Source: Pseudomonas silesiensis (GTDB lineage: Bacteria > Pseudomonadota > Gammaproteobacteria > Pseudomonadales > Pseudomonadaceae). Taken from it: a DNA stretch of 64,000 bases. The stretch covers positions 4,670,501 to 4,734,500 of the forward strand of contig NZ_CP014870.1 in assembly GCF_001661075.1 (NCBI RefSeq), written 5' to 3'. The translations under genes and the position numbers were made by a program. Position 1 is the first letter of the stretch; each line of letters starts with the position of its first letter. Positions 17,709 to 32,268 of this stretch are shown in pieces. Below the pieces are notes generated by a model that was not told the origin of the DNA, ran no database searches, and saw only the letters and a list, made by a program, of their open reading frames with translations.

Positions 17709-17734
17709 ATGTGGCGGTGAAGGAGAGATTCGAA
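17709..17734. repeat. Left attachment site (displaced tRNA-Ser 3' end)
   Basis: 26 bp identical to 30291-30316, including GTGGCGGTGAAGGAGAGATT. Sequence identity stops at 17735. Confidence 0.92.
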
Positions 17735-17788
17735 TTAAACCACCTTTTCGACCAACAACCGCCGTATTACGGGGCTTTCAGCGTGCAT

Positions 17789-17811
17789 AGTAGTACAATT
17801 GAGTAGTACAA
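17789..17811 (+). repeat. Left arm repeat (putative integrase arm-type site)
   Basis: 23 bp made of two direct copies of AGTAGTACAA 13 bp apart. The same 23 bp occur at 30219-30241 in the same orientation. The left copy starts 54 bp inside the left attachment repeat. Confidence 0.75.
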
Positions 17812-17845
17812 TCCGCTGTACCACTCCCCACTTCGCGGCGCTGAC

Positions 17846-19357
17846 ATGGCAGACAACCTCATCCAGAAGGCAGGCGAATCCACATGGTATGTTCGCCTGG
17901 CGGTCCCGGCAGATGTACAGCACAAGCTTGGCGCCAAGGTGTTGATCCAGTCGCTGAAAACTGGGCTGCGTAAAGTAGCCATGGATGCCCGTCTGCCCAT
18001 CCTCGCTGAATGGAAAGCACTGATTGCCTCGACACGAGCTGCGAAAGCAGCGGCACGTGAGCAATGGCGTCAGGAACTCGCTGACAAGAGCCTGGCATTG
18101 GACCCGCGAGTGGATGCAAGTTTGCTACAAGCTATCAAGAACCCACCGAAAGGTCTCGGAGGTACTGAATCCGAAATCATGGCTCGAAGCGAGCAACTGG
18201 AGCACAAGAAAGCTGCACTGCGATTAGAGCTTCAGGCACTGGAGGAGGAAGGTGCGAAAGGGCTGACAGATGAAGTATTCCACCTGTTCGAAACAGACCC
18301 TCCCACATCCATGGTGGAGGCGGTACAACGCATTGCCGGTCTTACTCGGAACGTAACCGTGCAACTGGCCCAGCATCGTTATGGCCTCAGTTCCACCGAG
18401 CTAGCTGAAGCCATCACCATCACGAACGAGCCTACCAGTTACAAACCAGCCTCTCCAATCACCACAGCTCGACTGAAGACCTACCGCGAATTCAGGGAGA
18501 GTCGTGGCGGCGCCGCGAAACACGTCGATCAGCAAGTGGGCAAGATGGAACGGTTGTCGGAATTCCTGAAGAAAGAGGGACTGCCCCTCACCTTCGACAC
18601 GGTAGATGCATGGCTGAAGTCGTTGGATCGCGCACCAGCGACGCTAGGTCAGTACCTCATGGCTGGCACTGCGTTCTGGAAGTGGGCAACGAAGTACGAT
18701 GCCGCGTGGCGCGAAGAGTACAAGGACAAGATCAATCCATTCACAGGGCATGAGCTACCCCAGGGCGGTGGTTCCGAATTAGCGGGACAAAAGAGGGAGA
18801 TGTACACACTAGATGACACCCTCAAGCTGCATCAAGCTGCCCTGGATAACAAAGACAAACCGCTTGCCGACCTCATCAAATTGGGCTGGTACACCGGGGC
18901 CAGGATCGAAGAGCTATGTCGGCTCAACAAAGACAGCGTGATCACTGTCGATGGCATCAGGTGCTTCAGCTTCCCGAAGAGTAAAAATCCATCGAGCAAG
19001 CGTGTGCTGCCGATCCATCCTAGTCTACTACCTGCTATTGATCGCCTCCTTGAAGACACCACAGACACCTTCCTCATCCCTATCAAGGCAGACGGCCCTT
19101 ACGGCAAACGCTCGCATGCAGCTTCCAAGGCGTTCAGCAGATTGCGATTAGCAGCAGGATTCGGCAGGCTCCACGTCTTCCACAGCTTCCGTAACACCGT
19201 AATCACTGGGCTTGTAAGGGCAGATGTGCCAGATGCTCTAGCAAAAGAGATGGTCGGGCATAAAGAAGGCTCGGTCACGCATGACGTTTACTCGAAAGGC
19301 GCGAGCACCGCTCAGAAGCTTGCTGCGATCTCCAAGCTACCAGCGCTACCCATCTAA
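17846..19357 (+). CDS. Tyrosine site-specific integrase of the island
   Basis: 503 residues. The N-terminus (MADNLIQKAGESTWYVRLAVPADVQHKLG) has the form of a DUF6538-type arm-binding domain. A core-binding helical domain lies around residues 210-300. The catalytic domain carries GWYTGARIEELCRL (first Arg), FPKSKN (Lys), HSFRNT (His-x-x-Arg), the second His in GHKEG and the nucleophile Tyr in DVYSKGAS. All catalytic residues are present, so it should be active. It reads inward from the left attachment site, 111 bp away, and presumably catalyses recombination at the tRNA-Ser repeats. Confidence 0.93.
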   Translation: MADNLIQKAGESTWYVRLAVPADVQHKLGAKVLIQSLKTGLRKVAMDARLPILAEWKALIASTRAAKAAAREQWRQELADKSLALDPRVDASLLQAIKNPPKGLGGTESEIMARSEQLEHKKAALRLELQALEEEGAKGLTDEVFHLFETDPPTSMVEAVQRIAGLTRNVTVQLAQHRYGLSSTELAEAITITNEPTSYKPASPITTARLKTYREFRESRGGAAKHVDQQVGKMERLSEFLKKEGLPLTFDTVDAWLKSLDRAPATLGQYLMAGTAFWKWATKYDAAWREEYKDKINPFTGHELPQGGGSELAGQKREMYTLDDTLKLHQAALDNKDKPLADLIKLGWYTGARIEELCRLNKDSVITVDGIRCFSFPKSKNPSSKRVLPIHPSLLPAIDRLLEDTTDTFLIPIKADGPYGKRSHAASKAFSRLRLAAGFGRLHVFHSFRNTVITGLVRADVPDALAKEMVGHKEGSVTHDVYSKGASTAQKLAAISKLPALPI

Positions 19358-19730
19358 CCCTCGCCACAGCCCGTCAGTGACTCAGTGCACAGGGCGGGCC
19401 TGGAAGGCTGCACAGGACATCTGCCAGGGTGTCCACTTCCACCGAGTACTACCGTCAGCCCGGCTGACCAGGGATTGCACGAAAGCGGTCAGCTTTGCGC
19501 AGTAACCCTAGGTAGTGGCGACACCACTTATCTTCCGGTCGAACGCATCACAATCATAATGATTCCACAATCCAGCCCTTGCCCTTGCCTTCTCTTTCTA
19601 TTTCTATCTGATTAAAATCTATCTAACTAAGGTGCCAAACTGACCTATGCCACAGGTGTCAACTTGACCTACGGGCACGGGTCAAACTGAGCTACAGGCA
19701 ATGCACTCACTTGAAGTAGCCAACCACAGG
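19358..19730. other. Non-coding stretch downstream of the integrase
   Basis: About 370 bp without a gene. The left half shows only short hairpins (for example GGACAT ... GTGTCC). The right half contains the first part of the iteron-like array. Confidence 0.5.
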
Positions 19731-19854
19731 TCAACTTGACCTACGGACTTCCCAAACTGGATCGTTCCCGGTAGGAATATCACAGGGCAAATTGACCCTA
19801 GGCACTACCGGCGCCACTTCCCGAACTACCGGGCCAGGGGTCAAACTGACCTTA
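19634..19854. repeat. Iteron-like repeats (GTCAAxCTGACCTA family)
   Basis: Copies related to GTCAACTTGACCTA begin at 19634, 19658, 19681, 19730, 19786 and 19840, with weaker ones near 19705 and 19751. The first three are 24 and 23 bp apart and the others fall near multiples of that step. The array straddles the 3' end of the gene at 19731-20303, so part of it is coding. It resembles replication-origin iterons or a repressor operator array. Confidence 0.6.
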
Positions 19855-20303
19855 GGTGCAGGCGCAGTAAACACTATGGGTGCATAGTCCGGTATGCGTT
19901 CTTCGGGCTCATCCAGTGTAGGCACAGGGACTGGTGTGGACACAGACGCTGACTTGCACTCAGAGGCGGGAGACCACAACACAAGGTCACTGAGGATCGT
20001 GTAACTGTTGGACTGGATAAAACCCTGGCGCCGCCGCGTCTCGACGGTGATGTAACCGTGCGTCTTCAAGAGCGCCATGAACCGCTTCACAGTGGACTCA
20101 CTGGTGCCGGTAGCAGCAACGATGTCCGCCTGGTTATCGAACCATTCACGGCCTTTGGATTTGAAGTGTTCGAAGCGCTGGAACATCCAAACCCACATGA
20201 TCTTTTGGTCGCCAGTGAAGCTGATTTTCTCGCCGGTGTGGGCGCTGATCCAGTGCGTGGCAGCCATGATCAGATAGGTCATTTTGCAGAATTGTGCGGT
20301 CAT
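19731..20303 (-). CDS. Winged-helix protein, possible replication or regulatory protein of the island
   Basis: 190 residues. Residues about 5-60 (YLIMAATHWISAHTGEKISFTGDQKIMWVWMFQRFEHFKSKG) lead into a helix-turn-helix segment NQADIVAATGTSESTVKRFMALLKTHGYITVETRRRQGF near 55-95, the layout of a winged-helix DNA-binding domain. The C-terminal 80 residues are Pro/Val-rich and look disordered; this part is encoded by DNA that contains iteron-like repeats. Position beside the repeats suggests that the protein binds them, as plasmid Rep proteins and phage regulators do. I recall similar proteins under DUF6945 but cannot confirm it. Confidence 0.7.
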   Translation of the reverse strand: MTAQFCKMTYLIMAATHWISAHTGEKISFTGDQKIMWVWMFQRFEHFKSKGREWFDNQADIVAATGTSESTVKRFMALLKTHGYITVETRRRQGFIQSNSYTILSDLVLWSPASECKSASVSTPVPVPTLDEPEERIPDYAPIVFTAPAPKVSLTPGPVVREVAPVVPRVNLPCDIPTGNDPVWEVRRSS

Positions 20304-20822
20304 ACGTTTCTCCTTATATTGTGTGTGGGCATCTCCGAATTTGTTAAATCGTACGCATGCAAAAAACTCAGTGCCAGTTCTCCATATAGTTGCGGAGGGG
20401 CAATGAGTATTGGTGGAACATGTGGCCTAACGTGGGCCTGATCATCTCGCCATCGTAGCTCGACGTGTAGGAGAACCCCTACCGGGTGCCGCTGGGTGCA
20501 TCACCTGTCGTGTCAGGACAGGAGGCGGATTATGCACATGGGATATGAGCGATGCAAGTTTTTATTGCGAAATGAGTGGAACAATCCCATATCGATCCGG
20601 GAAGGCATCTGAGAGGCCACAGGATAGGCGATAGACTCAAATCCATATCTTTCACAGGGTGTGTAGCCTATGACGCCTCAGGCGAACCTATGGAAGGCTT
20701 AGTTCTACAGCCTATGCCTCTTCAAACTGTTTATCCGCCCACCAGGGCGAACGTGTGACGTAGCGGCAAAGTGCCAACAACCACGCTAAGCTGACACGAT
20801 CACACATGCTGGAGACGCGGCG
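20304..20822. other. Non-coding stretch with a motif shared with the far end of the island
   Basis: About 520 bp without a convincing gene. A 16-bp segment ATTTGTTAAATCGTAC at 20339-20354 matches 29911-29926 with one difference and lies about 36 bp before the gene at 19731-20303. Two hairpins, GTAGG/CCTAC near 20467-20482 and CCTGTC/GACAGG near 20504-20522, are visible. A 60-codon frame at 20576-20758 lacks a ribosome site. Confidence 0.5.
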
Positions 20823-21098
20823 ATGGCAATGGAAATTCAATGCTCTGGGTGCGGCAAGAGAATACCTTTCGCTGGCGAAGTTTGCCCGTACTGCCAGCGC
20901 GACAAGTCCGACGATCAGATGAAAGAGACGGAGTTGCAGTTATCGTCTTTTATGGCTGCCATCGTGGCATTGATCGGAGGAGTCATTGTGTATCAATTCA
21001 GCACGCTCAAAGCGGCCTTGATCACTGGCGCTGTCCTGGGGGTGATCGTTCTCGTGGTGATGAACTGGGCGATTAATATGACCAAGCCGAAAACTTGA
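20823..21098 (+). CDS. Zinc-ribbon membrane protein
   Basis: 91 residues starting MAMEIQCSGCGKRIPFAGEVCPYCQRDK: two CxxC pairs (CSGC and CPYC) form an N-terminal zinc ribbon. Two hydrophobic helices follow (SSFMAAIVALIGGVIVYQF and ALITGAVLGVIVLVVMNWAI). GGAG is present upstream of the ATG at 20823. Probably an inner-membrane protein with the ribbon in the cytoplasm. No recognised named family; island cargo of unknown function. Confidence 0.72.
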   Translation: MAMEIQCSGCGKRIPFAGEVCPYCQRDKSDDQMKETELQLSSFMAAIVALIGGVIVYQFSTLKAALITGAVLGVIVLVVMNWAINMTKPKT

Positions 21099-21212
21099 CC
21101 AAGGCCGCTTTCCACAGACTCAGGGCGCACCTCCAGGCTACGATGTGACTTGATGGCAGGGAGCCACTGCGTCCGCTAACATGCTGATATCCCATCGCAC
21201 CGGAACGCTACC

Positions 21213-21668
21213 ATGAAGACGGTTATTGCTATTAGCGCCTGCTTGATGGCACTCGCAGGTTGCCAGGACTCAGAAGAGCAACGCTTGATGAAGGTGGCGA
21301 ATGCTGCGAAAAAAAGCATTGCTGCACGGTACAAAGACCCAGAAGCAGTGGTCTTCAAAGACCTCAGCCTCGATTGGCAACAACAACACATCTGTGGAGA
21401 GCTGAACGCCAAGAACGGATACGGTGGGTATATCGGGTATGAAATGTTTCGAGCTGACCTAAAAGGGACCGGTGGCAGTACGGTAGTAACCAATGTTCGA
21501 ACTAAAACAGAGATGCTTGAGCGATTCGAAGCAGACAGTGCGGCAGGACGACTCACAGCCTCCGATGCCGAGACAGCTCGAATAATTGCCATAGAGCTTC
21601 TGTGTATGGATGATGAGCTAATCAAGGGATCAACCAAGACATCTATTAAAATCCCTGATCCAAGTTGA
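21213..21668 (+). CDS. Hypothetical lipoprotein
   Basis: 151 residues with a lipoprotein signal (MKTVIAISACLMALAGCQDSEE; lipobox LAGC with Cys 17). Asp follows closely after the Cys but is not at +2. The mature part begins with helical MKVANAAKKSIAARYKDPEAVVFKDLSLD, a form seen in small phage or island lipoproteins, and then has NAKNGYGGYIGYE. Predicted outer-membrane or periplasm-facing lipoprotein. Stand-alone gene in the island; function unknown. Confidence 0.72.
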   Translation: MKTVIAISACLMALAGCQDSEEQRLMKVANAAKKSIAARYKDPEAVVFKDLSLDWQQQHICGELNAKNGYGGYIGYEMFRADLKGTGGSTVVTNVRTKTEMLERFEADSAAGRLTASDAETARIIAIELLCMDDELIKGSTKTSIKIPDPS

Positions 21669-21848
21669 CAAAACCCGCTTTCCACAGAACCGCATTTCGT
21701 AGCACGGCGAATGGCTGCTGATTACGATGGAACGTGAGGTGGTTGCCGACGTACCATCGTCACTCGCACCACCATGCTAAGGATGCAGCCAAGCGCCCTC
21801 AGCCTGGACACGCCCCATCAACATATAAAAGCAAGCACAGGTGTCTAC

Positions 21849-22037
21849 ATGACCAATGATGGAAGACAGGTGATGATTCGTCTAAACGACGAGGAAAACA
21901 AATTGCTGGAAGATGCAGCTGAGATCGTAGGCAAAACAAAAACCGCTCTAGCTCGCGAAAGCGTTCAATCTGCAATCCGTGAATTTAACGAGACTGGTAA
22001 GGTGCCGGAGTGGTTGGAACGCCGGCTCGCCCCGTAA
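21849..22037 (+). CDS. Small ribbon-helix-helix-like protein
   Basis: 62 residues from the ATG at 21849; the frame is open further upstream but those residues are unlike a protein start. The sequence VMIRLNDEENKLLEDAAEIVGKTKTALARESVQSAIREF fits a ribbon-helix-helix fold (one strand, two helices), as in small repressors and antitoxins. No partner toxin gene is adjacent. Possibly a regulator of the island. Confidence 0.65.
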   Translation: MTNDGRQVMIRLNDEENKLLEDAAEIVGKTKTALARESVQSAIREFNETGKVPEWLERRLAP

Positions 22038-22386
22038 TCAAGGAAGGTTGAGCCGCCGCTCTGGCAGACTCTGCACAGGGTGGGGCTCTTTCCACAGAAT
22101 CCCCTTTTCGCCGCCGAAAAAGGGGTGCAACTCTTCGGACGATCCAGACTCGGGCCAGGAAAATAATGATGGACTTGTCCCTGGAAACCTCTCGGTTCTA
22201 TTCCATGGGCTGAGTGCGATGAACCGGGCCTCACTGTGAAAGCTCGAAAGGGCACCAAAAATAAGTTGAGCGCCCTTCGCGATCAGTCTATGAGGCTGTT
22301 ACAGACGACCAGTTCACCCAGGTATACATCCACCAAAGACAACGAAGCCCGCTCTGTGGCGGGCATTCAACGAGGCTTGCTCGACG

Positions 22387-22941
22387 TCAAATCACAAACT
22401 CATGGTATGTGGCGTCAACTTGATCTTGAGTGATACCGATGTACGCCATGGTGATAGCTGGGCTGCTGTGGTTCAACACCCTGCAAATCATTTCGATGGA
22501 CACGCCACTGCTGTGCATCAGCCAGCCCCGAGTCTTTCGCATTGAGTGTGTGCCAAGGCTGATACCCAGCTCATCACCAACAGCCTTGAATGCTGTAGCC
22601 ACGGCAATACGGCTAACAGGTTTGTCCTTCGCCCGGTTGCTCTGTACTTCAAACAGGTAGGTGTGATGAGGGTTAGCATCCCTACGCTTCTTGACGATGG
22701 CGACAGCCTTTGTGTTCAGGGTGATGTTCCGCACCTTGCCCGTCTTCGACTCCTTGATCATGACACGACCCTGCAAAGCCTCTTCGTAGGTGATCGTCAG
22801 CAGGTCGGAGATGCGGAGTGCCACTTGCAGACCGAACATCCACAGGTCGGCATATAGAGGATTGCCACGGGCATTCAATGTCAGCTTGTGGGCGACCTGG
22901 TCAACTTCTGCTGATGTCTTCACCGCTTCGACTAACTGCAT
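22387..22941 (-). CDS. Catalytic-domain-only tyrosine recombinase
   Basis: 184 residues, about the size of FimB-type recombinases and lacking a separate arm- or core-binding domain. All catalytic residues are visible: Arg in ALRISDLLTI, Lys in KESKTGKVR, His-x-x-Arg in HSMRKTRG, His in LNHSSP and nucleophile Tyr in AYIGIT. Transcribed opposite to the integrase. A 27-bp dif-like palindrome lies about 100 bp upstream of its start. It could invert or resolve DNA in the island or act at a chromosomal site; this is inferred. Confidence 0.88.
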   Translation of the reverse strand: MQLVEAVKTSAEVDQVAHKLTLNARGNPLYADLWMFGLQVALRISDLLTITYEEALQGRVMIKESKTGKVRNITLNTKAVAIVKKRRDANPHHTYLFEVQSNRAKDKPVSRIAVATAFKAVGDELGISLGTHSMRKTRGWLMHSSGVSIEMICRVLNHSSPAITMAYIGITQDQVDATYHEFVI

Positions 22942-23043
22942 GACAACCCCCGGTGTTTACTGGCTTGGCTAATTAACAAAATGTTCTCCTGGGGTGGAGA
23001 TTACCCGAAAGCAGTAGGAAGTCAACAGTCATGCGGGTTGGCT

Positions 23044-23070
23044 AATTTACACAATCCTATTGTGTTAAGT
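23044..23070. promoter_or_regulatory. Dif-like palindrome upstream of the small recombinase
   Basis: Arms AATTTACACAA and TTGTGTTAAGT (9 of 11 positions complementary) around a 5-bp centre TCCTA. The right arm matches the XerD half of dif (TTATGTTAAAT) at 9 of 11 positions. A related half-site AATTAACAAAA lies at 22971-22981, and AGTAGGAAGTC follows both copies. It may be the recombination site or an operator. Confidence 0.4.
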
Positions 23071-23085
23071 AGGAAGTCGTCCCTC

Positions 23086-23304
23086 TCAGGACTGGCGTAG
23101 TCGATTGATGGCGTTCGTGATGGCCTGGGCGTTGGTGTCCAGCACCTGAAGCGAGCCCACTACGTTTTCCGCCACATGAGGCCCTCCCTGGCGAGTCGCC
23201 CAGTTGGCAAGCTCTTCCAAGGCAGCAGCGATCCCATGCTGGTTGTGCAGCAAGAGAGTCAGCACGTCGGCTGTAGCGATGTTGGCGTCTGGGTTGTTGG
23301 GCAT
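23086..23304 (-). CDS. Small helical hypothetical protein
   Basis: 72 residues from the ATG at 23304, with an AAGGACGA ribosome site 9 bases upstream. The sequence (MPNNPDANIATADVLTLLLHNQHGIAAALEELANWATRQGG) is helical, with no membrane segment and no cysteines. No named family recognised. It is read in the same direction as the recombinase gene but separated from it by the dif-like region. Function unknown. Confidence 0.65.
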   Translation of the reverse strand: MPNNPDANIATADVLTLLLHNQHGIAAALEELANWATRQGGPHVAENVVGSLQVLDTNAQAITNAINRLRQS

Positions 23305-23638
23305 GTCATTCGTCCTTGATGGTGGGAACGGCCATCCTAGCCCATTCCTGGGTACATGCCGACATCCGGTAGTTGACACTGATCGAGAACAGGTCATTCC
23401 TTGCAGCAATTCGACGATTACCGACGAAATATTCCATTCCCGTGCAAAATACTCAACTTCAGCACTACTAACGCACCTTGCTCCGCAACTATTCACCATG
23501 GCCTATATGGAATGCGGCTTCCAGGGACGGCACCCAGGATGGCCCCGGTTGAACGTGTGATGGTTGTTGAGGTTTCCCTGGGTTAATCGAGGTTGATTGA
23601 GGGTATTCTTCACGCCCCCTCAGAGAACGGATTCCATC
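23305..23638. other. Divergent intergenic region
   Basis: About 330 bp between the leftward 72-aa gene and the rightward 221-aa gene. No gene, repeat or strong promoter match seen. Confidence 0.4.
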
Positions 23639-24304
23639 GTGACCTACAAACTAATCGATATCGGCAAATTGCCAGACGAACCATTCAACTATCGTTTAAT
23701 GCTCCCGCTTCCAGCCAGCACACCATTTGGGAACTTCCAGCTCAAGTGGATGGACATGATGTCCAGACTCAATGAAGTAAACCGCCAAATCATCATCAGT
23801 CATGAAACATGGGAAGCCACCATCCAGGGAGACATCGAGGACAGCATGAAAGATGTGTTCAACACGCACCGATTCTCAACCGAATACGCAGTGACTGGAA
23901 TGCGAAGGGTTGCGGATGAACTTGTGGGCTTAGTCTGGTGCCTGGAGCGATTAGAAGTCACTGGCGAATACCCCAAGAAAATCAAGATGGACAGTATCGG
24001 CGAAGTAAAAGAGTCGTATAACGGGCCAAACGGCCTCATCAAGAGTCACCACGGGCTCATCAAGTTATTGAACGACCTCTCCAACACATTCAAGCACTCC
24101 TTCATTCAATCTGATCTGGCACGAGTGGGACAAGATGAGCCATTAGTGTTGGCACTGAACCTCAAGGGTGCAGACCACAGGAATGAGCCAACATTCTACA
24201 CAGTGAGGATGTCAGAACTAGTTCACCACTACACTCAGTTCTTCCATGATTGTCGTGAATGGCTTGACCAACACTGTAAGACCCGAAACCAGCAACACCA
24301 ATGA
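23639..24304 (+). CDS. Hypothetical helical cytoplasmic protein
   Basis: 221 residues if started at the GTG at 23639 (protein MTYKLIDIGKLPDEPFNY); a TTG at 23597 adds 14 residues. No signal peptide, membrane segment or cysteine-rich site. The middle and C-terminal parts are helical, with LLNDLSNTFKHSF near residue 155 and a final amphipathic helix VHHYTQFFHDCREWLD. It stands alone between two non-coding gaps, in the way many island cargo or defence genes do. I do not recognise the family and no catalytic motif is evident. Confidence 0.65.
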   Translation: MTYKLIDIGKLPDEPFNYRLMLPLPASTPFGNFQLKWMDMMSRLNEVNRQIIISHETWEATIQGDIEDSMKDVFNTHRFSTEYAVTGMRRVADELVGLVWCLERLEVTGEYPKKIKMDSIGEVKESYNGPNGLIKSHHGLIKLLNDLSNTFKHSFIQSDLARVGQDEPLVLALNLKGADHRNEPTFYTVRMSELVHHYTQFFHDCREWLDQHCKTRNQQHQ

Positions 24305-24526
24305 CATGACCCTTCCAGGGCTTTCGCCCTGAGAAGGTATAACGCGCCAGGGCAACTATCAGGTAACACGAATGAAACAGGTGTAAAGGAAATGGACGTT
24401 TTTGGGGAATCACTGGGGTAAATATTTTCATCCATTCGACGAACTGCCCTATCTTTGACACGTCAATGGTCTAGCCTCAAAGCCATTGCCTGTCTTAGGA
24501 CACTACTTGAGGAGCTGAATATCGAC

Positions 24527-24697
24527 ATGAAACCTTACCAGATTGTCATATTCCTCTTAGTTGTCTGTGTAGCGTGGTTTGCGTTAGTAATGGGGGTAAC
24601 GGTGATCTCCACATCGAGACCTTCACGTCTACCTGTAATGCCCGCTGCTAGCGAAGAGTCGGGCAGTCATGATGACCACCGGAAACATGCCCCATGA
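24527..24697 (+). CDS. Small single-span membrane protein
   Basis: 56 residues from the ATG at 24527, with GAGGAG about 12 bases upstream. One hydrophobic helix (YQIVIFLLVVCVAWFALVMGV) near the N-terminus is followed by a polar tail rich in Ser, Arg and His. Its stop overlaps the start of the next gene (ATGA at 24694), so translation of the two is coupled. Function unknown; a two-component small membrane unit such as a holin-like or toxin-like pair is possible but not shown. Confidence 0.6.
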   Translation: MKPYQIVIFLLVVCVAWFALVMGVTVISTSRPSRLPVMPAASEESGSHDDHRKHAP

Positions 24698-24837
24698 ACC
24701 TTCCGAAGTTCATCATGCTGTTGATCACGATTGCCATCGTTTGGTTACTGTTGGTCTATGGTGTCACCAAGTGGTATGAGCCGGATGAAGAGACACCGCC
24801 TACCAGTGAACGTGAAGTGTTCAAGCACACTGAGTGA
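24694..24837 (+). CDS. Small single-span membrane protein, coupled to the preceding gene
   Basis: 47 residues (MNLPKFIMLLITIAIVWLLLVYG, then an acidic tail with DEETPPTSE). One transmembrane helix at residues about 5-23. Its ATG overlaps the preceding stop in ATGA. The topology matches its neighbour (short N-terminus, one helix, soluble tail), but the tail charge is opposite: the first tail contains Arg and His, the second is acidic. The pair may interact. Function unknown. Confidence 0.55.
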   Translation: MNLPKFIMLLITIAIVWLLLVYGVTKWYEPDEETPPTSEREVFKHTE

Positions 24838-25254
24838 ATCGCCCATGGAACTACGCTCCTACACACACTCAACAAACATTAACACAATCCAGCTTCGCTG
24901 CTGGCTCTTGATCTTCTTTACAGTGCAAGACCGAATACGTGAGTATTCATGTGACCACCTATCAGCGTAGCGGAAGACTGTACACTTCAAGCGAGAGCGC
25001 AAAGACTCACATGCTGGTGATACGAATGTATCAATGTTCCAGCCACTACTTCAGGCTATCGCCTCTTCACCAGGTATACAGTCGTGAAGTGCCCTTCACT
25101 GAATCACACTTGAAAGCTGACGCTTACCGTGCAATTCCTTCGACGAAGGTCGTCAAAGTAACTCCTTTTAATAATAGGACTTTCTTGACCCCCTTGTACT
25201 TCGGGGCCTGCAGACGAATTCTCGCGTAACTTTTTTAAAATACCTACGGAAGAA
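24838..25254. other. Stretch without a supported gene
   Basis: About 415 bp. A 96-codon frame from a GTG at 24939 lacks a ribosome site and its composition is not protein-like. A weak CCCC ... GGGG hairpin near 25190 may end the leftward genes. Confidence 0.4.
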
Positions 25255-25896
25255 CTACGCGACCATGGCGAGACATTCGTCCGCATTGCCTGGGTGAAAT
25301 ACCCCAGTGTGCAGGCAGCCAACCGGGCGATACCACTCTTCAATGTATTTTCTGCGGCGGTAGTCATCACCTCTGAAGACCATGCGGGGATTGACGACCA
25401 ACTTGATCTCCCCCGTACGAATATTGCTATTCCGTGAGGTGCTGACCCTGAGCATATTGGCGTCTATCAACACCCGTAGCTTCTTCATCAGATTCGATTC
25501 AACAGTGCATAGTGATACTGCCAAGTCCGCCTGGATCATGATGATAACGTTGCGGTAGAGAACAAGCCCATGCAGCTTCTCAAGTAAGCGTTGCTGGGGC
25601 AATGTGATACGACAGTCAATACCAGTACGACGCCACTTTCCAAAAGCATGGTCGACTTCATCACGCAACGTATGCAGCTCGTGAGCCGGTAGCTTGCGTC
25701 GATCTACGAAGCCCAGGTGATACTGGAAATCATCGACGCTTCGGCACTTGCCGAGTTCAAGCATATAATCGTAGCGGCCACTCCACGGAGACAACTTTCC
25801 ATCATGGCCATGGATTTCACCAGTGTGTTTGTCGAGGATCAGTCCATCGACACTGATAAGGGCGTCAGTCTTCGTGCTATTTGCGGCTGTGTTCAT
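25255..25896 (-). CDS. Hypothetical winged-helix / RepL-like protein
   Basis: 213 residues from the ATG at 25896, with CAGGAG 8 bases upstream. The middle (SLCTVESNLMKKLRVLIDANMLRVSTSRNSNIRTGEIKLVVNPRMVFRGDDYRRRKYIEEWY) reads as recognition helix, wing and a VNPxMVFRGDDYRRRKY segment similar in layout to RepL-type replication proteins. It overlaps by 20 bp the small zinc-finger gene upstream and is the last gene of the leftward run. A role in element replication is an inference; the family was not verified. Confidence 0.55.
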   Translation of the reverse strand: MNTAANSTKTDALISVDGLILDKHTGEIHGHDGKLSPWSGRYDYMLELGKCRSVDDFQYHLGFVDRRKLPAHELHTLRDEVDHAFGKWRRTGIDCRITLPQQRLLEKLHGLVLYRNVIIMIQADLAVSLCTVESNLMKKLRVLIDANMLRVSTSRNSNIRTGEIKLVVNPRMVFRGDDYRRRKYIEEWYRPVGCLHTGVFHPGNADECLAMVA

Positions 25897-26047
25897 GTGT
25901 AGCTCCTGGCAGGATAGCGGGATTGGATGAATGGATATTGTTGTCTCGGTTGTATTCGTTGCGGCACTCACTAGAACAGAACGGATTTACTCGCTTCTTG
26001 TAAGTAACGTGACCACAATTCCTGCACGTACATAGTTTGAGAATCAT
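25877..26047 (-). CDS. Small zinc-finger protein
   Basis: 56 residues, starting MILKLCTCRNCGHVTYKKRV and continuing NPFCSSECRNEYNR. Cysteines in a C-x-C-x2-C ... C-x3-C pattern suggest one treble-clef or zinc-ribbon site. Its ATG overlaps the stop of the upstream interrupted gene (ATGA at 26044-26047), and its 3' end overlaps the next gene. A second small protein with a similar C-x2-C ... C-x3-C layout is encoded at 29422-29598, at the head of the same run. Confidence 0.6.
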   Translation of the reverse strand: MILKLCTCRNCGHVTYKKRVNPFCSSECRNEYNRDNNIHSSNPAILPGATHEHSRK

Positions 26048-26217
26048 GCTGTAAGCTCCTGTGCGGCTACTGAGGCGTCTTTATTGAATGAGATGATGTA
26101 GCAGGTGACTCCATACTTACTTTCAACTGCGTGACGCCATACACGCCTTCCTGTTGACTTGGCTAACTCCTATGCCGCATGCATAGCTTCGCTTGCTGTC
26201 GTGTAGAATTGACTCAT
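26044..26217 (-). pseudogene. Small gene interrupted by an in-frame amber codon
   Basis: A 57-codon frame begins MSQFYTTASEAMHAA after an AAGGAG ribosome site, meets TAG at codon 16 (26170-26172), and continues in frame as ELAKSTGRRVWRHAVESKYG to a TGA that overlaps the next start. The segment after the stop is protein-like, so a CAG (Gln) to TAG change is the simplest explanation; the family copy would read AAQELA. Either a recent nonsense mutation or a suppressed amber. Confidence 0.6.
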
Positions 26218-26246
26218 GATTACTCCTTGTTGTGTGGTGACGCTCT

Positions 26247-26651
26247 CTATGCGAGAGCTGCGACGGTAAACACTGCATCCAGGGGAAGTGTTGTTACACC
26301 AGCCCCAAATGCGTTCTGACGGACGATATAATCAACGCTGGTAGCCGTGACACTCAGGAAGTTGTAGTGGAATGTGTGGTCAGCAGAGATGCCTTCTAAG
26401 AGACCCAGGAGCTTCGGTGGAGCTGTTAGCAGTTGGTCGCTATAGTCGATAGTGCCTCTGGCGTAGCTCGGCCCGTACGGCTGCTCTGGAGCGCCTGCGA
26501 CTGAGACAGTGATTCGGAATAGAATCGGGATACTGTCTGCATGTGTCAGTGCGTGGAAGTATCCAAGCTCTGCCGCTCCCCTTGTTCCAAACTGCGATAG
26601 TGCTGTGGTGAGGTCGTCAATACTGACGTCTGTTACTATTTCAAATGACAT
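26247..26651 (-). CDS. Hypothetical protein
   Basis: 134 residues (MSFEIVTDVSIDDLTTALSQFG). Mixed alpha/beta composition with no cysteine, signal or membrane segment. The pattern HADSIPILFRITVSVAG ... DYSDQLLTAPPKLLGLLEG and the small-residue C-terminus (PLDAVFTVAALA) do not match a family I know. It is 24 bp downstream of a small membrane-protein gene and 29 bp upstream of the amber-interrupted gene, so all three are probably cotranscribed. Confidence 0.65.
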   Translation of the reverse strand: MSFEIVTDVSIDDLTTALSQFGTRGAAELGYFHALTHADSIPILFRITVSVAGAPEQPYGPSYARGTIDYSDQLLTAPPKLLGLLEGISADHTFHYNFLSVTATSVDYIVRQNAFGAGVTTLPLDAVFTVAALA

Positions 26652-26675
26652 GTGTAATTCCTTGTGTGTGTGGGG

Positions 26676-26942
26676 TTATTTGGTTTGTTTGTGAACAGCT
26701 CGCTCAACTGTTCTATCGACATACGACTTCATCGATTCACGCTCATCGGCAAACTGCTGCTGTACTTCGTTGCGGTGATGTAGCACCAGTTCAGCCGCTG
26801 CCATCCTGGCATTGCTCTCTGCCACTGCGGCAAAGAACCTGGCTTCGTGATTAGATCGTTCGTAGATATATGCAAATAGGCCAACTGTGGCGAGGATTTC
26901 AAGTGTGCAGGCGATTACCACCGCCTGGATAACGGAATTCAT
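26676..26942 (-). CDS. Small membrane-anchored coiled protein
   Basis: 88 residues: an N-terminal hydrophobic helix (VIQAVVIACTLEILATVGLFAYIY, residues about 4-27) followed by a long charged helix (SNARMAAAELVLHHRNEVQQQFADERESMKSYVDRTVERAV) likely to form a coiled coil. The topology resembles small phage spanin-like or membrane-anchor proteins, but no such function can be claimed. It appears to start the left half of the leftward run. Confidence 0.62.
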   Translation of the reverse strand: MNSVIQAVVIACTLEILATVGLFAYIYERSNHEARFFAAVAESNARMAAAELVLHHRNEVQQQFADERESMKSYVDRTVERAVHKQTK

Positions 26943-27134
26943 ATAACTCCTTGGTTAATCCTGGAAAGTCTGCCCTAGTGATCACCAATCCTTAGTCTAT
27001 GCTGAAATATTCACTCAACTGCTGCATCTCTACCGCTAAAGCGGCCGAATGGAATTATATGGTTGAGTGGATTGCGAAGCGGACCTTCAAACCTGTACGA
27101 TTGGGCTCAGGTAGCTTCTTGATAAGGAAACAGG

Positions 27135-27599
27135 ATGAACGCTAGGATTGCACTTGCTGTTACTGCGTTGGCCAGCCTTGTGGGCTGTGTTGCCACACCC
27201 AAGCCGGAACTTGCGGAAGAGGGGTACAAGATATTTGCGGCATGGTTTGTTGGCGGGGACCGGTGTGTACTTAAAGGCAGTATCCAACCGGAACTAGTGG
27301 CCTTTGGTAAAATGGGGCTGAATCAACAGTTAAGTACGTTCTCGTACAGTCCTGAGCGGTTGAACACTGCAATCAGTAGAACTGATGCAGAGACGCCAAG
27401 TTCAGAGCCTACACAGGAAGCCTGTAATGCAATGGCATTGCGAATTGCTGAGTTAAAACAACAACAGGAAGCAAACGCTGCTAACTTCGCCATGCAACAG
27501 CAGTCAATTAATCAATCACTGGAAGTGCTACGCAGTAACACACCTACGATGACGTCCTGCAACCGCTACGGTACACAAGTCATCTGCAATACTTATTGA
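27135..27599 (+). CDS. Hypothetical lipoprotein
   Basis: 154 residues with a lipoprotein signal (MNARIALAVTALASLVGCVATPKPE; lipobox LVGC). The mature part ends in a Gln-rich helix (ELKQQQEANAANFAMQQQ) and a terminal region with CNRYGTQVICNTY that could form a disulfide. It is the only rightward gene within the leftward block. It is followed by an inverted repeat (ACGGCTA/TAGCCGT, 27608-27633) that may stop transcription from both sides. Function unknown. Confidence 0.7.
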   Translation: MNARIALAVTALASLVGCVATPKPELAEEGYKIFAAWFVGGDRCVLKGSIQPELVAFGKMGLNQQLSTFSYSPERLNTAISRTDAETPSSEPTQEACNAMALRIAELKQQQEANAANFAMQQQSINQSLEVLRSNTPTMTSCNRYGTQVICNTY

Positions 27600-27699
27600 T
27601 GGGTGCAACGGCTATAGTTATTCACTGTAGCCGTGCTCCTTGTGGTTGTGCATCTTTTGTAGGACAGCTTCAGCCCAGTTCATTTCATCATCGACGGCT

Positions 27700-28089
27700 T
27701 CACTCCTTACTGCTCGTTGAAGTGCGGGACGCTCCGAAACTTCTGCCAAACTGCACGTAATCGGCCAGCTCAACATTCACTGTTTGCTCAAAGACTTTCG
27801 ACCCTGTACCTGCGTATCGAACCTGGAATTCTTGAAACGCTCCTTCATAACCAGCCAAGAACCTTTCAACAACTTCAGTGACAACACGACTGCCTGACAC
27901 CATCAGAACTAGCCCCTGGGTCGTTTTAAACCAGGCAATCATGTGTTGATGCATACCGACGTAATCTTGAATTCTCATTTTCAAGGCTTTGCACAGTGGC
28001 TTAACTGGAATCTTGTCGCCTACCAGGGTTGCAACTGTCCTGTGTGTCCCGTGTTGCGATAGCGTGTTGATGTAATCTTGTAGACTCAT
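27700..28089 (-). CDS. Hypothetical protein
   Basis: 129 residues (MSLQDYINTLSQHGTHRTVATLVGDK), mixed alpha/beta, no cysteine-rich site or membrane helix. The C-terminus is Ser/Thr-rich. The start overlaps the preceding stop by four bases (ATGA), indicating coupled translation with the 88-aa protein gene. No family recognised. Confidence 0.65.
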   Translation of the reverse strand: MSLQDYINTLSQHGTHRTVATLVGDKIPVKPLCKALKMRIQDYVGMHQHMIAWFKTTQGLVLMVSGSRVVTEVVERFLAGYEGAFQEFQVRYAGTGSKVFEQTVNVELADYVQFGRSFGASRTSTSSKE

Positions 28090-28352
28090 TGTGTTTGTCC
28101 TCCTGGCATGTCGGTTACGTTGTATTCACTAAACTTCTGTAGAACTTGACTCTCGACGATACTGTCAGCAAATGCATGGCGACCTTTTGCATCGAGCCCA
28201 TACGAACACAACACTTCACTTCGTACTTGCAACCACAGCTCTTCCAGGGTGATTGATGTCTTCTGCACTTCTATTGGGTGACTCTCCTGCACTTCCACCA
28301 ACGGGCTACTGGCGTACTTGGCTTTCAAGATTTCGTAGGTGAGGTCAGTCAT
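28086..28352 (-). CDS. Hypothetical protein
   Basis: 88 residues (MTDLTYEILKAKYASSPLVEVQE), soluble, with one cysteine. It starts one base into the preceding stop (TAATG) and ends in a four-base overlap with the next gene, so it is the middle of a translationally coupled trio. No family recognised. Confidence 0.65.
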   Translation of the reverse strand: MTDLTYEILKAKYASSPLVEVQESHPIEVQKTSITLEELWLQVRSEVLCSYGLDAKGRHAFADSIVESQVLQKFSEYNVTDMPGGQTQ

Positions 28353-28912
28353 TAGTTTGCTCCCAACTGTGCACGTACAGCTTTCCGGGCAACACCAAGG
28401 GCTTGCTCGACTTCTTTACGAACACGATCAGCCTCAGCCTCTGCGTCTTTAGCAGCCTGCTCTTCTTTCAAACGTGCTGCGTTGGCAAGCAACAACTGCA
28501 CTTCACGCTCTACGATAGCGTTGTTCTCGGCTTCAATCTCAGCGTTGTAGTCCTGGGCAACTCTCTGGTAAATCTTCTCCAGGTTGGCGTCCAACTCTGC
28601 TTGAGGACGGTAGAAGTAGATGTACATCGACTGGCCCTGGAACGGGACGATTTCCAGTTCGTGCAGAGTAAACCCTTCTGCTAGTTTCTCCTTGTACACT
28701 TTCAGAATCTCGGTTGGGTAGACAACCAAGACGGGAACGTATGCACCATCTACATGCCCGGCGATTGCACGCCCTGTCTTTGGATCAGTAAAGGCGAAGG
28801 CGTCATGTCCATGTTGGGTGGAATAGAACTTCTCACGTGCAGCTTCTTTCAATGCTTCCAGCTCGGCCTTGCTGGCTTTACGTAGAACGGTGGTTTGTGT
28901 TGTTGCGGTCAT
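28352..28912 (-). CDS. Hypothetical coiled-coil protein
   Basis: 186 residues. The N-terminal 110 residues are a globular alpha/beta part (HDAFAFTDPKTGRAIAGHVDGAYVPVLVVYPTEIL). The C-terminal 75 residues are a continuous charged helix (EIEAENNAIVEREVQLLLANAARLKEEQAAKDAEAEADRVRKEVEQA), a strong coiled-coil candidate. First gene of the coupled trio. No domain recognised. Confidence 0.68.
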   Translation of the reverse strand: MTATTQTTVLRKASKAELEALKEAAREKFYSTQHGHDAFAFTDPKTGRAIAGHVDGAYVPVLVVYPTEILKVYKEKLAEGFTLHELEIVPFQGQSMYIYFYRPQAELDANLEKIYQRVAQDYNAEIEAENNAIVEREVQLLLANAARLKEEQAAKDAEAEADRVRKEVEQALGVARKAVRAQLGAN

Positions 28913-29018
28913 TATGTGTTTCCTCTTAGATGTATACTTGCCCGGACTTTCGGGCGTAGGTGTTCGCTGATCGAACTTGATCAGTCGTTACGATTGGTTG
29001 TTGGTGTTGCGAAGGGTG

Positions 29019-29174
29019 TTACCTGGCGGGATTGGGCCAATGTAGCTTAACGGCAAATAGTGGCACCTGGAGCTCTTCGCTGATCATCTCAGGCGTCATA
29101 TGATGCATGTGGCGGGCGATGTACGATTTAAGATATTCAAGCGTGTCGCGTTTCTTTTGTTCATCCTTGAGCAT
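29019..29174 (-). CDS. Very small hypothetical protein
   Basis: 51 residues (MLKDEQKKRDTLEYLKSYIARHMHHMTPEM) with a perfect GGGAGGA ribosome site 9 bases upstream. Its start lies inside the 3' end of the preceding gene (14-base overlap). The composition is helical, with a His/Met-rich centre. Function unknown. Confidence 0.55.
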   Translation of the reverse strand: MLKDEQKKRDTLEYLKSYIARHMHHMTPEMISEELQVPLFAVKLHWPNPAR

Positions 29175-29337
29175 CTGGTTGTTCCTCCCTAGCCCTGCTC
29201 AAGTAACTGTGAATGAATGCGGCATCGGCGGAATTATACGTGTGGAACGTATAGCCATGATGCTCAGGACGGCGATCAGACGCTGTGGCATCTAGAAGCT
29301 TCTGTTGTAGTTCCCTGATCGTCTCACTCTGTGCCAT
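29161..29337 (-). CDS. Very small hypothetical protein
   Basis: 58 residues from the ATG at 29337 (MAQSETIRELQQKLLDATASDRRPEHHGY). The first half is a charged amphipathic helix and the second is Ala/Ser-rich. It overlaps the next gene by 14 bases. Function unknown. Confidence 0.5.
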   Translation of the reverse strand: MAQSETIRELQQKLLDATASDRRPEHHGYTFHTYNSADAAFIHSYLSRAREEQPDAQG

Positions 29338-29348
29338 CACTATCGAGT

Positions 29349-29429
29349 TCAATACTTTACAGCTTCGATGTGAAGCTCCATCAGTCTGTCAACTTGGCTT
29401 GTCTCGTGTTGCTGTTGTACATCAGTCAT
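29349..29429 (-). CDS. Possible 26-residue peptide
   Basis: An ATG overlapping the end of the zinc-finger gene opens a 26-codon frame (MTDVQQQHETSQVDRLMELH), 11 bases before the next gene. The tight packing suggests a coupled reading frame or a translational bridge. Length alone gives little support. Confidence 0.3.
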   Translation of the reverse strand: MTDVQQQHETSQVDRLMELHIEAVKY

Positions 29430-29598
29430 TTTGTTTTTCCTCTGGTCCTGGTGGGCTGATCGTATCGAGGTTGATAAGTTTGCGTTTCTTCAACCGGTGG
29501 AATTCTTTGTTGCATGTCTGCGAACAGTACACTGCTCGCTGGGTCTTGCTCGGGAACGGCCTGTTGCAGTGATTACACAGGCGTACGACTACGGCCAT
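29422..29598 (-). CDS. Small zinc-finger protein at the head of the leftward run
   Basis: 58 residues starting MAVVVRLCNHCNRPFPSKTQ and containing VYCSQTCNKEFHRLKKRKL. The C-x2-C ... C-x3-C arrangement followed by basic residues is typical of small treble-clef, DUF2116-like zinc proteins. An AGGAG-like site lies upstream. It is the first gene after the structured leader and terminator, so its expression would depend on read-through. Confidence 0.6.
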   Translation of the reverse strand: MAVVVRLCNHCNRPFPSKTQRAVYCSQTCNKEFHRLKKRKLINLDTISPPGPEEKQND

Positions 29599-29657
29599 AA
29601 GTTCTCCTATGGAATATGAGTGGTTGGGTATGTGGGGTGGAACGGAACTGCGAATGT

Positions 29658-29693
29658 AAAAAACGGGCAGGAAGATGATGGTCTTCTACCCGT
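29658..29693 (-). terminator. Intrinsic terminator ending the structured leader
   Basis: A 12-bp stem (ACGGGUAGAAGA pairing with UCUUC-UGCCCGU around one bulged C), a six-base loop and six U residues. It lies 60 bp upstream of the first gene of the leftward run. Confidence 0.85.
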
Positions 29694-29912
29694 CTCAAGT
29701 ACATCGATGTGTGTTGCGAATTTGTTGCTGCCTGGGTCGAAAGCATTAACCCTAACGTTGGCGGCGGGAACGTTCGACGGGGATCAGTCCGTCTACCGAG
29801 TGTGTAGCCTGTGATGCCCGGTGGATCACGGGAGACCCTGTAGAGGGCGGCTGTTCGGCCTGGATGGAAACGCCAGCACCGAACGAAGAGACGAGAAATT
29901 TCCCTTATCTAT
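29658..29912 (-). ncRNA. Candidate structured leader or small RNA, about 255 nt
   Basis: Begins just after a consensus promoter and ends at an intrinsic terminator, with no start codon followed by a plausible gene between. Many hairpins follow one another on this strand: CUGG/CCAG; AGCC ... GGCU enclosing CCCU/AGGG and GUGAU/AUCAC; GACGG/CCGUC; AACGUU/AACGUU; and GGGU/ACCC. It precedes a run of small genes. It could be an independent small RNA, an attenuator or a P4-like immunity RNA. No Rfam family could be assigned from sight. Confidence 0.6.
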
Positions 29913-29919
29913 TTGTTAA

Positions 29920-29948
29920 ATTGTACCATGACATATGCATCCTGTCAA
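29920..29948 (-). promoter_or_regulatory. Consensus sigma-70 promoter
   Basis: TTGACA, a 17-bp spacer and TACAAT on the minus strand. The -10 and start region lie in a 16-bp segment (29911-29926) that recurs at 20339-20354 with one mismatch. Confidence 0.85.
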
Positions 29949-30218
29949 CACATTCCACACCAAAGCGCAACTCTTTTTTCGCTATAAAAAGATCAACCTT
30001 CCTCTCCTATCGCCTACAACCCAGTATAACCAACGGCTACAGGGCACTCATCGCTGACTACCGTTCGTCTGATCGTACGCAAAGGGCTGCCTATGGCTGA
30101 GTGACGCTATCGGACTAGCGGCAGGTGTCTTGGGGGGTGGGTTTGAATCGAGTGCGCAGCGAGGGGATTGTAGGCGAGTGCTCAGCCTGGAGCGGATGAT
30201 CCAGGGACTCTGGGGACG

Positions 30219-30241
30219 AGTAGTACAATTGAGTAGTACAA
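30219..30241 (+). repeat. Right arm repeat (putative integrase arm-type site)
   Basis: The same 23 bp as 17789-17811, with two AGTAGTACAA copies 13 bp apart, ending 49 bp before the right attachment repeat. Confidence 0.75.
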
Positions 30242-30251
30242 CTGAAAAAGA

Positions 30252-30286
30252 AAAACCCCCGCAAACCATTGATTTGCGGGGGTTTT
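30252..30286. terminator. Terminator now serving tRNA-Ser
   Basis: Stem AAAACCCCCGCAAA / TTTGCGGGGGTTTT with a seven-base loop, just beyond the tRNA 3' end on the minus strand. It lies inside the island, so the element supplied a replacement terminator. Confidence 0.8.
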
Positions 30287-30290
30287 CAGA

Positions 30291-30316
30291 ATGTGGCGGT
30301 GAAGGAGAGATTCGAA
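30291..30316. repeat. Right attachment site
   Basis: 26 bp identical to 17709-17734. It includes the last 23 nt of tRNA-Ser (CCA end and T-arm). Confidence 0.92.
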
Positions 30317-30383
30317 CTCTCGATACAATTTCTTGTATACACACTTTCCAGGCGTGCTCCTTAAGCCACTCGGACACTTCACC
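30294..30383 (-). tRNA. tRNA-Ser (anticodon GGA)
   Basis: 90 nt, minus strand, with acceptor stem GGTGAAG/CTTCACC, anticodon loop containing CTGGAAA (GGA), a long variable arm, T-arm GAGAGTTCGAATCTCTC and encoded CCA. It is the integration target of the island and remains intact. Confidence 0.95.
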
Positions 30384-30421
30384 GTATCTCTTCAAACAAG
30401 TTCTGTCTGTCGAGGCGCGCT

Positions 30422-30450
30422 AATGTAGTCGAAAGCTTTTCCGATGGCAA
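30422..30450 (-). promoter_or_regulatory. Promoter of tRNA-Ser
   Basis: TTGCCA, 17 bp, TACATT on the minus strand, followed by a GC-rich discriminator (GCGCGCC) typical of stable-RNA promoters. Confidence 0.6.
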
Positions 30451-30690
30451 ACTTTTTTTGCAGAATTTTCATGCGGTTAGCAATTTAGTCGTGGCGACGG
30501 GATTCGAGCCATGGCAAATCTGCCAATCTCCGGCTTGCCGTCCCCTTCCTTATAGAGGGCAGTACCCTGCCAGCATGGCGGGCTACGCGCGTCGGACGGG
30601 GAAAGGGTGACTGGCGGGTCAGTCATAGCGCTTTACCTGGCCTATGGCGGTGGGTAACGTCTGGCCTACTTTATTGAAAGGAATAGCGTC
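30451..30690. other. Spacer between tRNA-Ser and the crotonase gene
   Basis: No gene found. It contains GC-rich imperfect palindromes (around 30537-30600) that do not fold as a tRNA. Confidence 0.4.
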
Positions 30691-31380
30691 ATGAGTGAGT
30701 TGATTTCCTACCATCTCGAAGACGGTATCGCGACCCTGACCTTGAGCAATGGCAAGGTCAATGCGATTTCGCCAGACGTGATTGCTGCATTTAATGCTGC
30801 GCTGGATCAGGCGGTGACTGATCGCGCGGTGGTGATCATTACCGGTACGCCCGGGATTCTGTCCGGCGGTTACGACTTGAAGGTGATGACGTCCGGTCCT
30901 GAAGCAGCCGTGGCGCTGGTGACGGCCGGTTCGACCCTGGCCCGTCGTCTGTTGTCGCACCCGTTCCCGGTGATCGTGGCGTGCCCTGGGCATGCCGTGG
31001 CCAAGGGGGCGTTTCTGTTGTTGTCGGCGGACTATCGCATTGGTGTCGACGGCCCGTTCAGCATTGGTCTGAACGAGGTGCAGATCGGCATGACCATGCA
31101 CCACGCCGGCATCGAGATCGCCCGTGATCGTCTGCGCAAATCGGCGTTTCATCGTTCAGTGATCAATGGCGAGATGTTCAATCCGCAGAGCGCGGTGGAT
31201 GCCGGTTTCCTTGATCTGGTGGTGTCGGTCGAAGAGTTGCAAGGTGCGGCGCTGGCAGCGGCGCGTCAGTTGAAGAAGATCAATATGACGGCGCACAAGA
31301 ACACCAAGCTCAAAGTGCGCAAGGCGCTGTTGGAGACGCTGGATAACGCGATCATCCTGGATCAGGAGCATTTGGGTTGA
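30691..31380 (+). CDS. Crotonase / enoyl-CoA hydratase family protein
   Basis: 229 residues, short but complete for this family. The oxyanion-hole segments are ILSGGYDLKVM near residues 57-67 and CPGHAVAKGAFLLLSADYRIG near 98-118. The usual catalytic glutamates at the second active-site helix are not obvious (LNEVQIGMTMHHAGIEIA). It belongs to the low-similarity group with isomerase or hydrolase variants as well as hydratases. Stand-alone gene with AAGG ribosome site 11 bases before the ATG. The CoA substrate is unknown. Confidence 0.88.
   Translation: MSELISYHLEDGIATLTLSNGKVNAISPDVIAAFNAALDQAVTDRAVVIITGTPGILSGGYDLKVMTSGPEAAVALVTAGSTLARRLLSHPFPVIVACPGHAVAKGAFLLLSADYRIGVDGPFSIGLNEVQIGMTMHHAGIEIARDRLRKSAFHRSVINGEMFNPQSAVDAGFLDLVVSVEELQGAALAAARQLKKINMTAHKNTKLKVRKALLETLDNAIILDQEHLG

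Positions 31381-31474: not shown

Positions 31475-32268
<794 letters not shown>

Follow-up and report, generated by a model that had tools for sequence, protein, structure and literature searches.

P4 offers the best-known case of premature termination that depends on a leader RNA. In two accounts, the P4 leader (CI RNA) is an untranslated and structured leader that lies ahead of the early genes and acts through premature termination (PMC4825925, PMC7567579). The first of these also outlines IsrK of Gifsy-1, where one promoter and a terminator give rise to either a short RNA or a read-through mRNA, with a very small ORF downstream (PMC4825925). The put RNA of HK022 is a structured RNA of about 70 nt with two stem-loops, which acts in cis; it follows an early promoter and precedes terminators through which early transcripts have to proceed (PMC9378689). 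For the PLE, which are phage satellites of Vibrio, abundant transcription of 5' untranslated regions is reported in each one, and the sequence of these regions is not conserved (PMC7567579). We compared with these systems a locus in the window (the whole stretch of 64,000 nucleotides of Pseudomonas silesiensis that was analysed), for which a promoter, a structured untranslated RNA and a terminator had been predicted upstream of a run of small genes and likened to the leader of P4-type satellites.

The integrative element and its leader unit

The host genome is a single contig of 6.82 Mb, and the window carries an integrative element of 12.6 kb (17709..30316), which has a lower G+C inside and is bounded by a perfect pair of 26-nt direct repeats (17709-17734 and 30291-30316). 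The right copy of the repeat overlaps the 3' end of a tRNA-Ser(GGA) gene (30294-30383). A 23-nt repeat, AGTAGTACAATTGAGTAGTACAA, itself a repeated unit, is present just inside both ends (17789-17811 and 30219-30241), and its copies are candidate arm sites for the integrase. A tyrosine integrase is encoded just inside the left end, opposite the leader end (17846..19357, plus strand), and a resolvase-like tyrosine recombinase consisting of the catalytic domain only at 22387..22941 (minus strand). Copies of this recombinase, 66-73% identical, are found in 13 other genomes among 398 genomes of the genus. The 3.8-kb plasmid pPGSB8459, which also encodes an inovirus-type Gp2 protein, has a copy that is 84.6% identical over 71% of the length and is cut by the start of the record. 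The element further encodes a protein with a weak similarity to RepL (25255..25896, minus strand; E 0.0042, 17 bits, below the Pfam cut-off of 20.3), a DUF6945 protein, a second Cys4 mini-protein besides that of the first gene (25877-26047, minus strand), whose family is present in 15 loci, and many small unknown genes; no phage tail genes were recognised in it. A conserved 186-aa protein of the small-gene run (28352..28912, minus strand) has a well-modelled structure (mean pLDDT 89.6), and a fold search with the model did not return any match at E<=0.001. Outside the element, two matches to the Rfam family TwoAYGGAY (RF01731), scoring just over the gathering threshold, lie in opposite orientation at 31617-31681 (minus strand) and 32061-32125 (plus strand).

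The unit of promoter, leader and terminator sits at the right end of the element and reads leftwards. The near-perfect sigma-70 promoter of the original prediction could be recovered at 29920..29948 (minus strand) as TTGACA and TACAAT with a spacing of 17 and a TG before the -10 (extended -10); it scores 11/12 and recurs in relatives. The weight of this assignment comes from its score and recurrence and not from the number of sites, since promoter-like sites of at least 9/12 in 28500-31000 are no more frequent than chance predicts (2 found, 1.9 expected). No other promoter of at least 9/12 was found on the minus strand between 28500 and 29920. From a start placed 7 nt past the -10, a putative structured and untranslated leader RNA of ~255 nt extends over 29658..29912 (minus strand). 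It ends with a strong predicted intrinsic terminator, GACGGGUAGAAG...CUUCCUGCCCGU-UUUUUU (29658..29694, minus strand), which folds, and the pairing of its stem is kept in the relative L030 (L-numbers are labels of relative loci) with three two-sided changes. A simple terminator scan, which found 3 sites against 2.7 expected, did not include this terminator, probably on account of a bulge in its stem. The first gene, zn1, encodes a 58-aa Cys4 zinc-ribbon-like protein (29422..29598, minus strand), and its start codon (ATG at 29598) lies ~60 nt past the T-run of the terminator, the distance that had been predicted.

Recurrence of the layout in related elements

Comparison of related loci shows that the promoter, fold, terminator and gene order, as predicted from sequence, recur. 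The leader DNA itself matched only its own genome (1 of 57 genomes; 1 of 398 genomes of the genus) and did not match any of the phage and plasmid records searched, and relatives were therefore sought through the 186-aa gene and the recombinase. The 186-aa gene has 25 homologous clusters, itself included; its alignment matches at 24 places (one of them in the window) in 21 of the 398 genus genomes, and of 341 genomes of the order it matches just the one that holds the window. Viral contigs scanned with three proteins and one alignment did not yield a relative. At each of the 23 loci to which the 186-aa gene led besides the window, the same order could be marked upstream of that gene by scans and by eye: a site resembling a promoter, then untranslated sequence, a hairpin that runs into a T-rich tail, and the Cys4 mini-gene; L028 and L036 are near-identical copies within one genome. 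Four extra leaders came from the recombinase search (L063, L064, L066) and from Stutzerimonas (L003). Seven loci were reached through the recombinase only, and four of them are not in the leader set: L065, which ends at a contig edge, and L067, L068 and L069.

A strict rule, which asks for a promoter of at least 10/12 at -180 to -560 and a terminator at -35 to -110, was passed by 23 of 27 Cys4 genes (L036 left out) and by 0 of 368 control ORFs, the former rate being an upper one because the leaders were located partly by their promoters, which does not affect the control rate. The controls were ORFs of at least 150 aa from the same loci and the window, 58 of which had a terminator-like site and 1 a promoter. 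Among the Cys4 genes found through the 186-aa gene and tested, 20 of 23 pass. The failures are due to the promoter in L032 (a poor -35) and to the terminator in L039, L041 and L066, yet in L041 a hairpin of -16.0 kcal/mol folds at this place. A T-run is present 48-96 nt ahead of the start codon in 26 of 27 leaders (the search covered 35-110 nt). The leaders vary in length from 143 to 436 nt and differ strongly in sequence. A coding leader found no support, as the longest ORF has a mean of 40.5 aa, which is below the 44.0 aa of shuffled sequences (25 leaders).

The relatives have a tyrosine or large serine integrase together with a tyrosine or small serine resolvase. Integrase and resolvase are likewise present in the window element; relatives in addition carry a tape-measure-like protein, and one of them further tail genes. 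A protein of ~740 aa is present in nine relative loci; its copy in L030 has no Pfam hit, and many homologues of this copy have PF20155 or are named tape measure protein. An unannotated contig of 12,681 bp, deposited as phage from human faecal samples (MT836130.1, labelled L077), encodes a tape-measure-like protein, recombinases and a Cys4 gene with a leader of the L032/L033 type and a terminator; its promoter has a TATAAT and no -35 by the rule. The element of P. aeruginosa HPA0698 (L080; NZ_CP137508.1, 44000-75000) lies between vacJ and patatin/minC genes, in a record that is filed as a plasmid and holds chromosomal genes. It has a promoter 602 nt before the start codon, a leader at about 53.5-54.1 kb, a terminator and the Cys4 gene, with Dit-like, chaperone-like, tape-measure, baseplate-hub and spike genes downstream, and it carries recombinases. 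The tail genes suggest that the related elements are tail-carrying phage satellites or defective phages, and from their gene content they look like an undescribed family of tail-carrying satellites. The family was found in 20 sampled genomes of the genus besides that of the window, and also in the record of one P. aeruginosa isolate and in one faecal phage contig.

Predicted structure of the leader RNA

Folded by itself, the window leader has a minimum-energy structure with the named hairpin and the AGCC..GGCU multibranch, in agreement with the hairpin-packed RNA of ~250 nt described originally. Its energy is not exceptional (z -1.04, with 38 of 200 shuffles as good; z -1.63 in a second run with 30 shuffles and the terminator included), and it is for this reason that the structure is argued from comparison with relatives. 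The minimum free energy lies under the shuffled mean in 27 of 27 leaders, with z < -2 in 18 of them (30 shuffles each, terminator included). The best DNA match of the window leader among the loci is L032 (E 0.010), and L037 matched a different piece (0.035). With L030, the window leader aligns best over the first 110 nt and at the terminator.

Helix 1, a hairpin of the form GUUCGG-UG-CUGG...CCAG-G-CCGAAC at 29853..29884 (minus strand), is found in the window fold and in the comparison with L030, where its ten counted pairs have one two-sided and one one-sided change and none is broken; the fourth pair, C-G, which lies outside the counted pairs, is not kept. It is followed by a predicted three-way junction at 29806..29852 (minus strand), in which P1 (AGCC/GGCU) closes P2 (CCCU/AGGG) and P3 (GUGAU/AUCAC), with a UCUCCC linker. 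Next to it, at 29772..29805 (minus strand), are the linker ACACACUCG, GUA, the hairpin P4 (GACGG/CCGUC) and GAAC. RNAalifold with the window and L030 leaders gave 49 pairs, 12 of them changed on both sides, in a fold that includes the named hairpin, the multibranch and the terminator. Loss of pairing in homologues had been named as what would speak against the stems, and in L030, the one close relative, all 33 of the 33 pairs of the named stems are kept with seven two-sided changes, in a test that compares two sequences and a structure fitted to both, helices 1 to 4 being predicted from the window alone as well. This score (seven two-sided changes, all paired) was reached by 5 of 500 shuffles, and in slid controls 27-42% of positions were paired, with 0 or 1 two-sided change.

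The junction could be recognised by hand in L032, L033, L039, L044 and L077, and less clearly in L035. P1 appears as AGCC/GGCU, GGCC/GGCC, GGCC/GGUC or GGCU/GGCC. The sequences of P2 and P3 vary, and a linker (AACUACU, for example) leads to GUA or GUUA, a P4 hairpin with a varied stem, and then GAA, GAC or GG. In seven leaders, the window included, 127 of 128 hand-set pairs are standard though most stems differ, in an alignment that was made by hand and leans towards the structure, and in which P3 of L030 can be drawn in two ways; the blocks were set by hand because MAFFT misaligned the variable stems. All listed positions of P2 and P3 and 5 of 6 positions of P4 show two to five standard pair types, and P1 varies little. 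A strict descriptor of the junction matched 6 of 29 leaders against 1 of 580 shuffles, and a relaxed one 8 of 29 against 3 of 1160, both having been drawn up after the cases were seen. The eight relaxed matches are the seven of the junction group and L038; the other 21 leaders are unmatched and share the order and composition, not the junction fold.

Searches of Rfam 15 with the whole window and eight relative loci did not give any leader match above the gathering threshold, and searches with the window leader (E<=10) and the L077 and L044 leaders (E<=5) gave none or matches far below threshold. By the Rfam test the predicted leader represents a new structural class among leader RNAs, placed in a known kind of arrangement. 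No description of such an RNA or element was found in the literature searched, which comprised titles and the starts of abstracts and covered subscription journals thinly.

A second recurring unit is the pentamer AAUUC placed right after a hairpin (stem of at least 5 bp, loop of 9-16), which is seen at 12 of 27 sites in 11 leaders against 14.9% of positions (P 2e-4, with some leaders related to each other). The loops of this module often have GAA at or near the 3' end and the stems differ; CUAAUUC occurs 9 times against 0.6 in shuffles. The L073 leader (8802-9237, minus strand) has the module in two copies, and hence the module can be repeated. In the window leader the related segment AACAAAUUCGCAACACAC (29709..29726, minus strand), which is common to L032, L039, L044 and L077 and more distantly to L030, is present with no such short hairpin ahead of it. 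The leaders of L042 and L043 have an identical loop, CACGCUGUCGAA, on stems that differ (GUCGUC/GACGAC and GUUGCA/UGCAAC).

Proposed conditional read-through and its alternatives

We lean, with moderate confidence, towards a reading in which the conserved leader RNA gates the small-gene (early) operon of the element by conditional read-through. The strong extended -10 promoter would drive a single transcript, and the nascent RNA would fold into the three-way junction, the GUA-hairpin-GAA unit and more hairpins. By default the polymerase would stop at the intrinsic terminator ahead of the Cys4 gene and an RNA of ~255 nt would be released, and the operon would be expressed only when the polymerase reads through. 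The folded RNA would be the receptor that decides on read-through, either through a direct effect on RNA polymerase like that of HK022 put or by binding a factor of the element, of a helper phage or of the host. We infer transcription, default termination, read-through and its trigger. A strong promoter is followed by a recurring fold and then by a terminator, which transcripts from that promoter must pass, and this combination points to conditional read-through. Points against gating are that the junction was matched in only 8 of the 29 leaders, and that by the strict rule L039 and L066 have no canonical terminator and L032 no good -35. We offer more tentatively the proposal that the new RNA class is the regulatory switch of undescribed Pseudomonas integrative elements with phage tail genes, probably phage satellites, and times read-through of the early operon, for example on infection by the helper phage.

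A helix competing for the 5' arm of the terminator does not stand out in the window (z -0.02) or over 27 leaders (mean z 0.17), so that no classical RNA-only switch is seen, and pairing to the ribosome site of the first gene is not strong (mean z -0.41). Leader type and Cys4 type are largely uncoupled (Spearman 0.10, p 0.07): closely similar leaders lie ahead of unrelated Cys4 genes (L029/L031, L034/L041), and some pairs are alike in both leader and Cys4 (for example, L029/L037 and L040/L041). This uncoupling argues against the Cys4 protein as a specific, co-evolving ligand of the RNA, a candidate that we set aside.

It is unlikely that the leader is an immunity RNA like that of P4 or IsrK. 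In such a system the RNA that ends at the terminator, whole or as a fragment cut out of it, would pair in trans with the element's own transcript and cause premature termination or altered translation, a resident copy thereby silencing an incoming one. The anatomy is close (a promoter, an untranslated structured RNA, a terminator and small genes), and at the level of sequence an untranslated leader runs from the promoter ahead of presumably early genes, as in P4-type systems. The loop CUGUCGA, conserved in L042 and L043 on a stem changed on both sides, matches an upstream UCGACAG (P 0.04 and 0.00) and possibly forms a pseudoknot or a seqA/seqB-like pair. However, the test over the whole leader is not significant for these two (P 0.23 in L042, 0.29 in L043) and the other listed hairpins are not above shuffles (P at least 0.19). 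A 15-nt internal complement in L003 and one at P 0.04 in L028 both lie inside predicted hairpins. The longest self-complement of the window leader, with segments at least 25 nt apart, is 6 nt (shuffled mean 6.6, P 0.92), in a test of low power, since the P4 leader as control gave only 10 nt (P 0.13). The complement of the leaders to their own operon is no longer than that to others (mean 10.21 nt against 10.23 nt, 24 leaders), and the window leader has 10 nt against a mean of 9.8 and a maximum of 12 with the operons of 23 other elements. What stands of the P4-type reading put forward originally is that a structured RNA ends at a terminator ahead of a mobile element's run of small genes. The immunity function itself did not find support, the self-complement and the operon complement being ordinary and no Rfam family reaching its threshold, where the P4 control itself came to no more than P 0.13 for self-complement.

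Quite unlikely, too, is a stand-alone trans-acting sRNA whose pyrimidine loops (UCCUCC, CCUUCC) would pair with Shine-Dalgarno sequences in mRNAs of the element, of phages or of the host; in that case the sRNA would plainly end at the terminator and the operon would live on leak-through. Such a role would accord with the enrichment of UCCUCC in the 27 leaders (16 against 4.2 in shuffles), its being unpaired more than in shuffles (0.745 against 0.563), the lack of such a strand bias in the operons (TCC 226, GGA 262) and the largely independent exchange of leader and Cys4 types. In the same leaders CCUCC occurs 29 times and GGAGG once. On the other hand, the gene that directly follows the leader is of one type throughout the loci seen, a target was not identified, and the excess of TCC is modest (227 against 198.7, z 2.9) and may reflect contact with Rho or avoidance of GGA, which is depleted in the leaders (47 against 89.5 in shuffles, 29 leaders). 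An ordinary insulated 5' region, with a real promoter and terminator and an RNA of no specific function between them, is very unlikely, for although the fold of the window leader has ordinary stability when taken alone, 9 of 27 leaders have z > -2 and the leaders diverge strongly in length and sequence, it would leave the compensated three-way junction and P4, the recurring hairpin-AAUUC module and the low fold energies across all 27 leaders without a reason.

If conditional read-through is the correct reading, it would add a structural class of regulatory RNA that has no Rfam match and is tied to a family of mobile elements. It would also be another solution by premature termination in a satellite-like family, and how these elements detect a helper, or remain silent, could then be tested directly.

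The locus resembles P4 in having an untranslated structured leader before the genes of an integrated element. It differs in that pairing of the seqA/seqB/seqC type is not above controls in the window (the P4 control being weak), in the absence of an Rfam match, in the intrinsic terminator that ends the leader and in a first gene that encodes a Cys4 mini-protein. With IsrK of Gifsy-1 it shares a layout of a single promoter, a terminator in the leader and a very small downstream ORF; IsrK belongs to a Salmonella prophage, and the pairing in trans between short and long RNA was not detected in the present leaders. The 5' untranslated regions and IIR RNA of PLE are a comparable case of 5' untranslated regions that vary in sequence, and both host and element differ from the Pseudomonas case. 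Cuckoo RNAs and LhrC-type sRNAs have C-rich loops and unpaired UCCUCC-like motifs; these unpaired motifs are shared by the present RNA, which is the leader of an operon. By description, the leader of the window shares with HK022 put the place of a structured RNA after a promoter and ahead of a terminator, and it differs from put in size and form, with ~255 nt (143-436 nt in relatives) and a three-way junction with more hairpins in place of about 70 nt and two stem-loops.
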